Positions 9,616 through 12,586 of a DNA stretch of 13,531 nucleotides are shown here, piece after piece. The DNA is from Burkholderiales bacterium UBA954. Its GTDB lineage: Bacteria > Pseudomonadota > Gammaproteobacteria > Burkholderiales > Burkholderiaceae_A. The notes under the pieces are model-generated. The model searched no databases, was not told where the DNA came from, and saw only the letters and a list, made by a program, of their open reading frames with translations. The DNA is taken from contig DBCQ01000010.1 of NCBI GenBank assembly GCA_002293155.1, positions 1-13,531 of the forward strand, written 5' to 3'. Position 1 is the stretch's first letter, and every line of letters starts with the position of its first letter. The translations under genes were made by a program, and so were the position numbers.

Positions 9616-10422
9616 CTAGATCGCGACAGGGGCCTTGATGTGGGGGTGGCTCTGGTACCCCTGGATTTCAAAATCCTCAAAACGGTAATCAAACAGCGAG
9701 GGAGGCTTGCGGTTGATCACTAACTTTGGCAGGGGGTAAGGCGTCCGTGACAGCTGCTCGGTGGCCTGCTCCATATGATTCGAGTAGAGATGGCAATCCC
9801 CGCCTGTCCAAATAAAGTCACCCACTTCAAGGTCAGTCTGCTGCGCCACCATATGCGTTAACAGGGCATAGCTTGCAATATTAAAAGGTACCCCAAGAAA
9901 GATATCGGCGCTGCGCTGATAAAGCTGACACGACAACCGACCATCGGCCACATAGAATTGAAACAAGGCATGACAAGGCGCTAGTGCCATCTGCGGAATC
10001 TGCGCCACGTTCCAGGCCGAGACAATCAGCCGCCGCGAATCGGGGGTCGCACGAATATCGCGAATCAGTTGTGTCATCTGATCAATCGTGGCCTCTGCAT
10101 TTTCGGAAGTGGGCGCGGGCCAGGATCTCCATTGCTTTCCATAGACAGGGCCGAGATCACCATCTGCTCTGGCCCACTCATCCCATATCGAAACACCCTT
10201 TTCCTGCAACGGGCGCACATTTGACGAGCCACTTAGAAACCACAGCAATTCGATAATGATGGATTTGGTGTGCAACTTCTTGGTGGTCACCATTGGAAAT
10301 CCATCAGATAGATTAAATCGCATCTGCCACCCAAATACGGAGCGCGTTCCGGTTCCTGTGCGGTCGGTTTTGGGCGAGCCATGAGTAAGTACATGGCGCA
10401 TCATGTCAAGGTAGGTCTTCAT
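9616..10422 (-). CDS. thyA: Thymidylate synthase
   Basis: Methylates dUMP to dTMP with methylene-tetrahydrofolate, yielding dihydrofolate. The 268-residue protein is close to the 264 of E. coli ThyA. Visible residues are the phosphate-binding Arg21 in DRTGTGTRSVFGWQMRF, Arg130-Arg131 in PDSRRLIVSAWN, catalytic Cys150 in LAPCHALFQFYV, and QLYQRSADIFLGVPFNIASYAL with Arg170, Asp173 and Asn181. His211 and Tyr213 are in GGDCHLYSNH, and the C-terminal tail APVAI is intact. All match E. coli numbering with an offset of four. The start ATG overlaps the TGA stop of the upstream senC gene by four bases (ATGA), suggesting translational coupling. folA follows by 20 bases. Confidence 0.98.
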   Translation of the reverse strand: MKTYLDMMRHVLTHGSPKTDRTGTGTRSVFGWQMRFNLSDGFPMVTTKKLHTKSIIIELLWFLSGSSNVRPLQEKGVSIWDEWARADGDLGPVYGKQWRSWPAPTSENAEATIDQMTQLIRDIRATPDSRRLIVSAWNVAQIPQMALAPCHALFQFYVADGRLSCQLYQRSADIFLGVPFNIASYALLTHMVAQQTDLEVGDFIWTGGDCHLYSNHMEQATEQLSRTPYPLPKLVINRKPPSLFDYRFEDFEIQGYQSHPHIKAPVAI

Positions 10423-11471
10423 GTCCGTATCTGTACTGTCGCGTCTACACCTTTGCGTTTGGCCATATGACCGATCGCCCGGGCATAAGAAAAACCGGCG
10501 GCTTTAAACTGATTCAATACTCGGTCTGCTGCATCCGGGGCCACGCAGGCTAATAAGCCGCCACTTGTCTGCGGATCTGTAACCAGGGTTTTAATCTCGT
10601 CGGGTAACTCGGGTGCAATGGCGACGGCATTACCATAGCCCTCCCAGTTGCGCGTCGATGCCCCCGTGAAATGACCCTGGGCTATCAATTCTTTTACACC
10701 GGGAAGCACTGGAAGCGCCAAGGCCGAGACGACTGCATCTAAATCTGAGCCGCGCGCAATTTCCAGGAGGTGGCCAGCAAGTCCAAATCCTGTGATGTCG
10801 GTCAGCGCATGGACCGATGAGTCTGCGCCGAGTTGGGCGCCAACGGTATTGAGTTGCGTAGTGGACTGGATCATTTCTTTGTAGTGCTGCGGAGATAACT
10901 TCTCTTTTTTCAGTGCAGCAGAGTAGATACCAACACCTAGACCCTTACCGAGGATGAGCACATCACCATCTTGTGCATCACGGTTGCGACGGATGTGATC
11001 TGGGTGGGCGATGCCCAGCGCCACCAGCCCATAGATCGGCTCAACAGAATCGATGGTGTGGCCGCCAGCAATTGGAATACCCGCCTGGGTACACACTGAC
11101 TGGCCCCCTTCAAGAATCCTGCCGATCGTTTCTTTCGAGAGCACCTGAATCGGCATCCCCACCAAGGCCAACGCAAAGATCGGAGTCGCGCCCATCGCAT
11201 AGATATCTGAAATCGCATTTGTCGCAGCGATTCGACCAAATTCAAAGGGGTCATCAACCACAGGCATAAAAAAATCGGTCGTAGCCACCAAGGCCTGTGA
11301 ATCATTCAGACGCCAGACCGCAGCATCATCGCTGGTCTCGGTACCCACCAAGAGCTCTTTGGCAACCACGCCAAGCGGCATCTTCGCTAAGATCTCTGAC
11401 AAAATCGCAGGTGCAATCTTGCAGCCACAACCACCACCGTGTGCTAGCTCAGTTAAACGGGTTATTGCCAT
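10419..11471 (-). CDS. senC: Selenide, water dikinase (selenophosphate synthetase), probably SenC of a selenosugar pathway
   Basis: Converts selenide and ATP to selenophosphate, AMP and phosphate in the cytoplasm. The 350-residue protein has the normal length. The glycine-rich N-terminus HGGGCGCKI carries Cys15, Cys17 and Lys18 (the latter two equal E. coli SelD Cys17 and Lys20). Metal and nucleotide sites are intact: SDDAAVW (Asp49/50), TTDFFMPVVDDPFEFGRIAA, SDIYAMGATP (Asp89), GGHTIDSVEPIYGL, LTDITGFGLAGHLLE (Asp225) and GGLLACV near the C-terminus. The active-site residue is Cys, not selenocysteine. By sequence alone it is SelD. The senC name rests on its place directly after senB. It may also supply selenocysteine or selenouridine synthesis, but no selA, selB or mnmH is in the window. 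A good ribosome binding site precedes it, and it overlaps thyA by four bases. Confidence 0.9.
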   Translation of the reverse strand: MAITRLTELAHGGGCGCKIAPAILSEILAKMPLGVVAKELLVGTETSDDAAVWRLNDSQALVATTDFFMPVVDDPFEFGRIAATNAISDIYAMGATPIFALALVGMPIQVLSKETIGRILEGGQSVCTQAGIPIAGGHTIDSVEPIYGLVALGIAHPDHIRRNRDAQDGDVLILGKGLGVGIYSAALKKEKLSPQHYKEMIQSTTQLNTVGAQLGADSSVHALTDITGFGLAGHLLEIARGSDLDAVVSALALPVLPGVKELIAQGHFTGASTRNWEGYGNAVAIAPELPDEIKTLVTDPQTSGGLLACVAPDAADRVLNQFKAAGFSYARAIGHMAKRKGVDATVQIRT

Positions 11472-11475
11472 CGTT

Positions 11476-11483
11476 CTCGCTCC
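11476..11483 (-). promoter_or_regulatory. Ribosome binding site of senC
   Basis: GGAGCGAG on the minus strand in the 53-base gap after senB, with 8 bases between GGAG and the ATG at 11471. No terminator-like hairpin with a T-tract is visible in this gap. Confidence 0.6.
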
Positions 11484-11524
11484 ATGAAGCTTTAGTCTGC
11501 ATTGCTGAGTATCGCACTCCGCCG

Positions 11525-12586
11525 TTACGCCTGTGCGTCAGCCAGCTGACGTACCAGCCGTACCAAGGCATCCCGCTCATGCGCCGGGGAGGTCAGCCGC
11601 GGCGCGAGAGCCAGACTGCTCTGGCGAAGGCTACGGGAGAATTCCTCGTCCGCGATAAAGCGAACCAGGTGTTGGGCGAGCACCTCCACATTGCCCACTG
11701 GAAAGAGCCCCGGGTAGTTCGCCCCGAGCTGGGCGCGATGAGCGGCAATGTCGCTTGCGATGACGGGGCAACGACAGGCAAGGGCTTCCGGCACCACTAA
11801 GGCGCCCCCTTCCGATACCGACGACTGAATTAAGGCGTGCACATGAGTGATCTGGCGCAGTGTCTGGGCGTGGGTGAGGGCCCCCTCGAGAAGAATCCCG
11901 GGGTACTGAGCCCCCAGATGGATAAGCTCTTGGGCAAGCGTACGGTCCTGATGACTGCCCACATGAATTAACCGTACAGGAACCCGACCCCCATCGGATC
12001 GAGTTGCCCAGCCCTCTGGAAACGCCCGGTGAAATGCCAGAAATGCCGTTCGTGGGTCTTTCTCCTCGCGGATATGGGCCGCAATTAGAAAACGTACGGT
12101 TTTACTATTTGCCGAGACAGTCGGTGCATAGGGCTTGCGTTGAGGAGATGTTTGAAAAATACAATGCACTCGGCTTGAGAGCTCGGGCCAACGCTGCTGA
12201 ATCTCTTGCTGCGCCTCAGTCTGAAGCGTAACGATTAACGCTGCGGCCTTCAGAGATGCTTCCGCCTCAGCGTATCGCTTTGACCCCTCTGCTGCCGGAT
12301 CGAGAGCACCATACAAATCGGTGCCCGTCATCACCAAGATCACCGGAATCTCTGCGCGAACAAACGCTTGTAACTCCTGATGGGACCGTGCCGCATTAAG
12401 AACAATTGCAACAGTGCGCTGACCTGAGCTTAAACAGGCATCCAGAATATCAATAGGCTCATAGACCGACGCGTTGATACCGCTGGATCTCAGCATCTGC
12501 GCGTAACGCGATGCGGTACGCCAATTTCCCATTCCCGAGGCGGCGCCAAACGGCGTCAGTACTCGAACATCAATACGGCGGGTCAT
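11525..12586 (-). CDS. senB: Glycosyltransferase of the SenB (TIGR04348) type, putative selenosugar synthase
   Basis: A 353-residue GT-B fold protein. The sequence matches what I recall of the TIGR04348/SenB family: LTPFGAASGMGNWRTASRYAQ near the N-terminus (10-30), LNAARSH (63-69), VMTGTDLYGAL (85-95), HCIFQTSP (141-148), AAHIREEKDPRTAF (169-182), LIHVGSHQDRTLAQE (206-220), LEGALTHAQTLRQI (233-246) and SSVSEGGALVVPEALACRCP (255-274). It ends with LGANYPGLFPVGN. SenB joins selenophosphate to a UDP-sugar to form a selenosugar (published for the selenoneine pathway). The neighbouring selenophosphate synthetase supports this role strongly. Its ATG directly abuts the fabI stop (TAAATG), so the two are probably translated from one message. 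An ordinary cell-envelope glycosyltransferase is the alternative, but the SenB-like motifs and the SelD neighbour argue against it. Confidence 0.85.
   Translation of the reverse strand: MTRRIDVRVLTPFGAASGMGNWRTASRYAQMLRSSGINASVYEPIDILDACLSSGQRTVAIVLNAARSHQELQAFVRAEIPVILVMTGTDLYGALDPAAEGSKRYAEAEASLKAAALIVTLQTEAQQEIQQRWPELSSRVHCIFQTSPQRKPYAPTVSANSKTVRFLIAAHIREEKDPRTAFLAFHRAFPEGWATRSDGGRVPVRLIHVGSHQDRTLAQELIHLGAQYPGILLEGALTHAQTLRQITHVHALIQSSVSEGGALVVPEALACRCPVIASDIAAHRAQLGANYPGLFPVGNVEVLAQHLVRFIADEEFSRSLRQSSLALAPRLTSPAHERDALVRLVRQLADAQA

Follow-up and report, generated by a model that had tools for sequence, protein, structure and literature searches.

A senB–selD pair without an adjacent senA in a fabI–thyA–folA gene row, and a selenoneine pathway probably split over two loci in Burkholderiales bacterium UBA954

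A senB–selD pair between fabI and thyA

The window analysed here is a stretch of 13,531 nucleotides, the first bases of contig C9 (DBCQ01000010.1) in the genome of Burkholderiales bacterium UBA954, the host. The host assembly comprises 1.61 Mb in 72 contigs and is 79% complete. Within the window, a gene for a putative SenB-type selenium glycosyltransferase (GT) and a selD gene for selenide, water dikinase stand in a row of minus-strand genes (Table 1). Open reading frame (ORF) coordinates give the order fabI, GT, selD, thyA, folA. fabI abuts the GT gene at 0 bp, 53 bp separate the GT gene from selD, and selD overlaps thyA by 4 bp. An initial annotation of this DNA had placed both frames at these positions and had noted that fabI and thyA leave no space for senA, the gene for selenoneine synthase. 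The ORF check bears out both points. No senA, egtB or egtD is among the window's genes, and SenA and EgtD searches of the host genome place none there. The window probably holds a two-gene selenosugar module, senB–selD, set within a fabI–thyA–folA row.

All seven genomes of the genus (the host and six sister genomes) have the GT, and all seven have SelD above its cut-off, so the gene arrangement is not due to chance. The two genes are adjacent in six of the seven; in G004 the contig ends within selD. In G001 the senB and selD frames, as called by script, overlap by 4 bp. Promoter and terminator patterns showed no excess over shuffled sequence.

Table 1. Features of the senB–selD row in the window.
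Feature	Coordinates	Strand	Evidence
senB-type Se-glycosyltransferase (GT-B/GT4), 353 aa	11525..12586	-	TIGR04348 190.9 bits, best family, cut-off 300
selD (labelled senC in the initial annotation), selenide, water dikinase, 350 aa	10419..11471	-	TIGR00476 417.9 bits (cut-off 125); NF002098 510.1 bits (cut-off 299)
senB–selD spacer, 53 bp	11472..11524	-	coordinates
fabI, enoyl-ACP reductase, immediately upstream of senB (0 bp)	12587..13372	-	NF005422 453.3 bits, cut-off 440
thyA, thymidylate synthase, directly downstream, 4-bp overlap with selD	9616..10422	-	NF002497 474.9 bits, cut-off 327
folA, dihydrofolate reductase, next in row	9014..9595	-	matches shown all DHFR families, e.g. NF008037 104.3 bits (below cut-off 168)

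Profile, fold and active-site residues support a SenB-type glycosyltransferase

The GT had been assigned to SenB (TIGR04348) on the basis of motifs. TIGR04348 is its best family at 190.9 bits, and the second, NF038229, reaches 86.3 bits. No other GT-B family scored better. Membership of another GT4 family was rejected, as the next family lies about 105 bits lower. The assignment thus holds for family, fold and active-site residues, although the score stays below the TIGR04348 cut-off.

Among solved structures, the GT is closest to the SenB entries 8jjq, 8jjn and 8fbx and to a Ramlibacter enzyme, 8k5u (94–97 bits). An AlphaFold2 model of the GT (48 sequences; predicted local distance difference test score 94.3) was compared with the PDB. 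Ranks 1 to 15 are all SenB chains, with E-values of 3.6e-22 to 2.5e-18 and template modelling scores of 0.72–0.82 by query length. The first non-SenB matches, GlgM and BshA, follow at E about 3e-13 (best 3.1e-13) and weaker.

In Variovorax paradoxus SenB, N20, T23, E231 and Q131 bind the donor, and N20, T23 and E231 set donor use. The selenophosphate pocket is made up of N20, R61, T83, T85 and R155 and is lined by H58, and K158 is required for cleavage of the Se–P bond (PMC10891094). The window GT is 26–29% identical to this enzyme in structural alignments. It retains residues matching N20, T23, R61, T83, T85, D86, Q131, R155, K158 and E231, so that the donor triad (N20/T23/E231) and the Se–P-cleaving lysine are both present. 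It departs at two positions, with Asn in place of H58 and Leu in place of H235, and the SenB motif EGGAHV reads EGGALV. Leu occupies position 235 in all sampled SenBs of the host's taxonomic family except that of G021; elsewhere the residue is mostly Asn or His, with Phe in two proteins.

We surveyed these positions in 93 database proteins. Forty-five of them, each representing a database cluster at at least 61% identity to the window GT, form its clade; the other 48 lie outside it. R61, T83, T85, D86, Q131, R155 and E231 occur in all 45 clade proteins and K158 in 44, while N20 and T23 are kept in all 43 that reach those positions. Among the 47 other SenB rows of the residue table, Asn58 is limited to the six genus members. 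Eight loci of the clade lie on named GTDB contigs, five of them corresponding to G002–G006 and one to G019. In the tree a long stem (1.15 changes per column) leads to the clade; other stems in the host's taxonomic family are also long (e.g. 1.35). The GTs in the fabI slot may or may not share a single origin (support 46/40). The long stem and H58N allow a shift in function. Because profile, fold and active-site residues agree, the evidence supports a SenB-type enzyme that would work like a SenB, though it is not a member of the NCBI equivalog. We predict that it makes a 1-seleno-sugar from selenophosphate and a UDP-sugar.

The NCBI cut-offs (300 bits for SenB, 420 bits for SenA) miss nearly all members of the host's taxonomic family. 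SenB passes in none of 13 genomes and SenA in two of 26. Generic product names such as 'glycosyltransferase' may stem from these missed cut-offs.

selD serves other selenium pathways in the genus

The window SelD matches Escherichia coli SelD (3u0o) at 320 bits. Its C15 and K18 align to E. coli Cys17 and Lys20, which we take to be the catalytic pair. A complete dikinase with a Cys17/Lys18 active site had been described here; the enzyme is intact and both residue types are present, but the numbering is C15/K18 (C17/K20 in E. coli). The gene had also been labelled senC. It is simply selD, as selenophosphate has two other uses in the genus. SelA is found in six of the seven genus genomes and MnmH in all seven, and both SelB and tRNA-Sec are present in the host and in G001. 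With SelA/SelB and tRNA-Sec on one side and MnmH on the other, the presence of selD is no evidence for a SenC dedicated to selenoneine.

The genes of the selenocysteine system (selA, selB and tRNA-Sec) lie at L148 6925–11513 and L149 3175–12890. The latter locus also holds the formate dehydrogenase-N gene of G001, which has an in-frame UGA.

The start of a senA gene lies elsewhere in the host genome

A profile search of the host genome with the SenA model NF041186 returned a match of 76.8 bits, covering model positions 21–93, at the end of contig C41 and unlinked to the window. The 107-codon frame reaches the end of the contig without a stop codon; the gene is therefore cut by the assembly. 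G015 SenA shares 55% identity with it over this stretch. A protein database was then searched with a chimera scored only on the 107 C41 residues. The search found P0094, a SenA of 398 amino acids with 449 member sequences, which is 96% identical over those residues and scores 421 bits against the SenA model (cut-off 420) and 284 bits against a solved SenA. With a SenA N-terminus at the end of C41, the view that the host lacks senA was rejected. Of the two options offered in the initial annotation, a senA at another place in the genome is correct for the host as far as the assembly lets us see. The annotation had added that an unlinked senA with selenoneine as sole product would leave an ordinary pathway; the C41 senA start goes much of the way to this, though neither an intact gene nor the product is in evidence.

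When P0094 itself was the query, the next protein after itself is 51% identical among the best 120 of 1,543 matches, a comparison that covers proteins longer than about half the query. No close relative of P0094 was found among named GTDB contigs, a set that may omit the records of the host.

EgtD, the source of hercynine, adjoins senA in all 12 EgtD-bearing genomes among 26 of the host's taxonomic family. Since the host assembly stops at that point, a host egtD may lie beyond the end of C41. The proposed whole-genome check for senA and EgtD genes yielded the senA start and no EgtD.

C41 is very probably host DNA, because its dehydrogenase, MDH and Bug genes resemble those of genus members and its composition is, among the stretches compared, nearest to that of the host's own contigs. 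Identities of the three genes to their counterparts are 68, 72 and 80% in G001 and 68, 70 and 85% in G003; for the dehydrogenase and MDH they are 67 and 69% in G006, whose contig breaks off there. This range of 67–85% is like that of the window's own genes. The tetranucleotide correlation of C41 is 0.858 with the host, 0.66–0.75 with four sister-species stretches and 0.51–0.58 with seven stretches of a neighbouring genus. Both comparisons argue against C41 being a contaminant in a host that, like its sisters, has no senA, and the contamination listed for the host genome is 0. That reading could draw on the TPR gene beside senA, which is unmatched in all six sisters and finds 41–46% matches in four genomes of that neighbouring genus, itself part of the family. 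It could also draw on MDH, which is present in only three of the six sisters and is 70% identical to that of G017 from the neighbouring genus. We consider contamination highly unlikely.

At C41 2620–5066 (L145), genes for a HupE/UreJ-like membrane protein and the TPR protein lie beside senA. As the TPR protein is unmatched in the sisters, this senA may be part of an accessory region.

Sister genomes keep senB and selD without detectable senA

We surveyed 26 genomes of the host's taxonomic family with profile searches for the GT, SenA, SelD and EgtD. The GT and SelD are present in all six sister genomes, including the single-contig G001, which we take to be strain MWH-UniP1. The MWH-UniP1 aquatic group is equated with the GTDB genera UBA2463 and UBA954 in the available text of PMC12381374. 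Genome-wide, neither SenA nor EgtD was detected in any of the six. The SenA model gives matches of about 40 bits to part 247–318 in five of them and none in G001.

Three layouts occur in the family. Some genomes have senA–senB–egtD clusters, with or without selD alongside. The window's genus has fabI–senB–selD–thyA. G019 is split: selD–senA–egtD lies at C11:334–337 kb, and its only SenB, which has H58, lies about 170 kb away at C11:162 kb in the fabI–thyA slot. The G019 layout gives an unlinked SenB partner a precedent in the host's taxonomic family. In G007 the GT lies between fabI and thyA, SelD is unlinked to it, and no SenA or EgtD was found. G014, G018, G023, G024 and G025, most of them 70–83% complete, yielded no GT, full SenA, SelD over the cut-off, or EgtD. 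G011 (93% complete) has a SenB-type GT between fabI and thyA (L041 9403–10473) and no detectable selD, senA or egtD.

The GT frame contains no internal stops in any of the seven genus genomes (that of G006 is cut by a contig end). The ratio of nonsynonymous to synonymous substitution rates (dN/dS) of the GT is 0.044 for G003–G004 at dS 0.78, compared with 0.031 for FabI in the same pair. Five other GT pairs give 0.07–0.13 at near-saturated dS. Judged by these sequence comparisons, senB in the sister genomes is under purifying selection.

senB without senA recurs across the order

The pattern was followed in an order sample of 399 genomes, using TIGR04348 and the SenA model at E ≤ 1e-20 and SelD at E ≤ 1e-60. 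TIGR04348 matches occur in 129 genomes. Thirteen of these have no SenA-model match, nine have weak matches only (1e-20 to 1e-50, host fragment included) and 107 have 'full' ones; the weak matches in eight senB genomes have E-values of 1e-23 to 1e-50. A survey of relatives for senB–selD without senA, suggested in the initial annotation, thus found the pattern in all six sister genomes, and 22 of the 129 senB genomes have no full SenA-like match. As 79 genomes with no senB give full SenA-model matches too, EgtB-type enzymes are probably among the 107, and the number of senB genomes without a true SenA is probably 22 or more.

SelD accompanies senB in 125 of the 129 genomes (missing in G011, G027, G191 and G218) versus 160 of the 270 others (Fisher p 5.8e-18, uncorrected for kinship). 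It is found in 21 of the 22 senB genomes without a full SenA-like match, including all 16 outside the host's taxonomic family. We examined 16 senB loci, three on short stretches, and selD adjoins senB without senA in three, those of G067, G279 and G092. Their TIGR04348 scores of 450, 442 and 377 bits all exceed the cut-off of 300. G067 and G279 share one family and G092 belongs to another; the assemblies of G067 and G092 each consist of one contig and have a listed completeness of 100%. The eight tree rows outside the host's taxonomic family that have no SenA-model match require six changes on the tree and so are not one lineage.

In G067, senB–selD lies directly downstream of lnt (L205 9568–11585), with a counterpart in G279 (L206 7958–10560), and neither has a SenA-model match. 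This pair is a second, unrelated occurrence of senB–selD. In G092, whose single contig has no SenA-model match, selD–senB lies beside dnaX–recR (L212 8174–10370). G046, of the same family, has senA beside senB and dnaX–recR at that place, so senA was probably lost in place in G092. No consumer gene was recognised beside senB–selD: the neighbours in G067 are purD, purH, dusB and lnt, and those in G092 are dnaX and recR, with Imm5-like, BRCT and transposase-like genes on the other side.

Possible fates of the selenosugar

The likeliest reading for the host, and one we hold to be probable, is an ordinary selenoneine pathway split over two loci. SelD would make selenophosphate, which would also serve selenocysteine and 2-selenouridine synthesis in the host. 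SenB would join selenium to a UDP-sugar, by analogy UDP-GlcNAc, freeing a 1-seleno-sugar. In the host's own species the selenosugar most likely feeds the unlinked SenA, which would attach selenium to hercynine to give selenoneine. Several points weigh against this. The GT scores 190.9 bits against a curated equivalog cut-off of 300, although those senA-linked SenBs of the host's taxonomic family that were scored are also under 300, at 156–210 bits (e.g. G013 209.7, G010 176.6). All 45 clade proteins carry Asn at position 58, whereas the 48 others have His in 46, Asn in one and a gap in one. C41 has a GC content of 0.519 compared with 0.54–0.55 for the host, and correlates at 0.77–0.83 with host pieces of its size, where host pieces reach 0.85–0.91 with the other host contig. 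P0094 belongs to a different assembly, perhaps that of a sister species. The 107 codons do not prove that the host senA is intact, as the gene is cut by the contig end in a genome that is 79% complete. EgtD was not found in this incomplete genome.

In the sister species, where senB is intact and senA and egtD were not found, the selenosugar could be an end product or feed another enzyme. That the selenosugar has a further use had been the second option of the initial annotation. The host does not need it, but it best explains the six sister genomes and perhaps several other families. Such a second use in the genus is a serious possibility, if somewhat short of probable, and is compatible with a split selenoneine pathway in the host. 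The product may be functional itself, as a sugar selenol in redox defence, storage or detoxification, or it may be the substrate of an undescribed enzyme, and the host SenA would then be accessory. The six sisters, single-contig G001 among them, keep senB and selD without detectable SenA or EgtD, and the catalytic residues persist through the clade (K158 in 44 of 45). The SenB clade spans 45 clusters, whereas the host-type SenA has no relative above 51% identity among its best 120 of 1,543 matches. Pairs without detectable senA recur in G067, G279 and G092, SelD is present in 21 of the 22 genomes without a full SenA-like match, and the SenA-less rows outside the family are not one lineage. However, no candidate consumer gene emerged from neighbours that are housekeeping genes, apart from the Imm5-like, BRCT and transposase-like genes of G092. 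At least the start of senA is present in the host, and in G011 the GT occurs with no SelD detected. The genomes are related, so that the Fisher p-value overstates their independence. More tentatively, senB–selD may work alone in this genus and also, as independent cases, in two or more other families of the order. The selenosugar, a small sugar selenol, would then either be a redox, storage or detoxification metabolite in its own right or give rise to a third bacterial selenometabolite family, with SenA-based selenoneine as one branch.

Two readings would deny the module a selenosugar function. The clade GT may have drifted to another acceptor, with the adjacent selD serving selenocysteine and selenouridine only. 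The fixed H58N, the long stem, the other users of selD and the G011 GT, in the same slot without detectable SelD, would all fit such a drift. Yet the other pocket residues (N20, R61, T83, T85, R155) and K158 are kept, and other lineages of the family are also long-stemmed. In V. paradoxus SenB, H58A, H58Q and H58D lowered activity without abolishing it; Asn is not among the H58 mutants named in the available text of that study (PMC10891094). G019 has senA, selD and egtD and no other SenB was found there, though the G019 GT has H58. We regard drift as unlikely. It is less likely still that senB is a relic, decaying after the loss of senA and egtD from the sister species. The patchiness of senA in the genus is what such decay would leave, but the frames have no stops, dN/dS stays at 0.04–0.13 across six computed pairs, with dS near saturation in most, and the catalytic residues are conserved.

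Relation to known pathways

The nearest known system is the V. paradoxus sen cluster, senA–senB–senC, for selenoneine. It shares with the host the senB–selD pair, the GT-B fold, the donor-site residues, the Se–P-cleaving lysine and, as far as its start, SenA. In the host, however, senA is unlinked, and in the sisters it was not found; the pair sits in the fabI–thyA–folA row. The GT itself differs from V. paradoxus SenB in its low identity (26–29%), its score below the TIGR04348 cut-off and the changes H58N and H235L.

The ovoselenol pathway, with OvsA, is likewise a selenium small-molecule pathway (PMC13188914). Solved OvsA chains are sequence relatives of SenA, a family to which the sisters show only the partial matches of about 40 bits, and G001 none. 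Selenocysteine and 2-selenouridine synthesis share SelD and both occur in the host (SelA, SelB, tRNA-Sec, MnmH), but involve no glycosyltransferase. BshA and MshA, the first enzymes of bacillithiol and mycothiol synthesis, make sugar-based low-molecular-weight redox cofactors. They are among the structural neighbours of the GT after SenB, at 12–15% identity, and use other acceptors. Unlike in those systems, no downstream thiol genes were seen beside the senB–selD pair.

According to the available text of a 2026 review, selenoneine and ovoselenol are two bacterial selenium metabolites of recent characterisation (PMC13188914); the authors who discovered the sen pathway anticipate further selenometabolites (PMC9814287). 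A selenosugar synthase conserved with selD in genomes in which no selenoneine synthase is detected indicates where to look for a further one. The recurrence and conservation of senB and selD without detectable senA make a second use of the selenosugar a good and testable hypothesis, for which MWH-UniP1 (G001) offers a named strain, provided that it is in culture. A search of literature titles and abstract openings found no description of senB without senA; the founding sen and ovoselenol papers lay outside that search, and we do not claim that the pattern is unpublished.

Other genes of the row

folA diverges faster than its neighbour, with 58–59% identity in the two sister pairs computed versus 83–90% for thyA. 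An RND efflux permease gene (5002–8076) lies further along on this strand. It occupies the corresponding region in five of the six sister genomes, and in G004 the contig ends before it.

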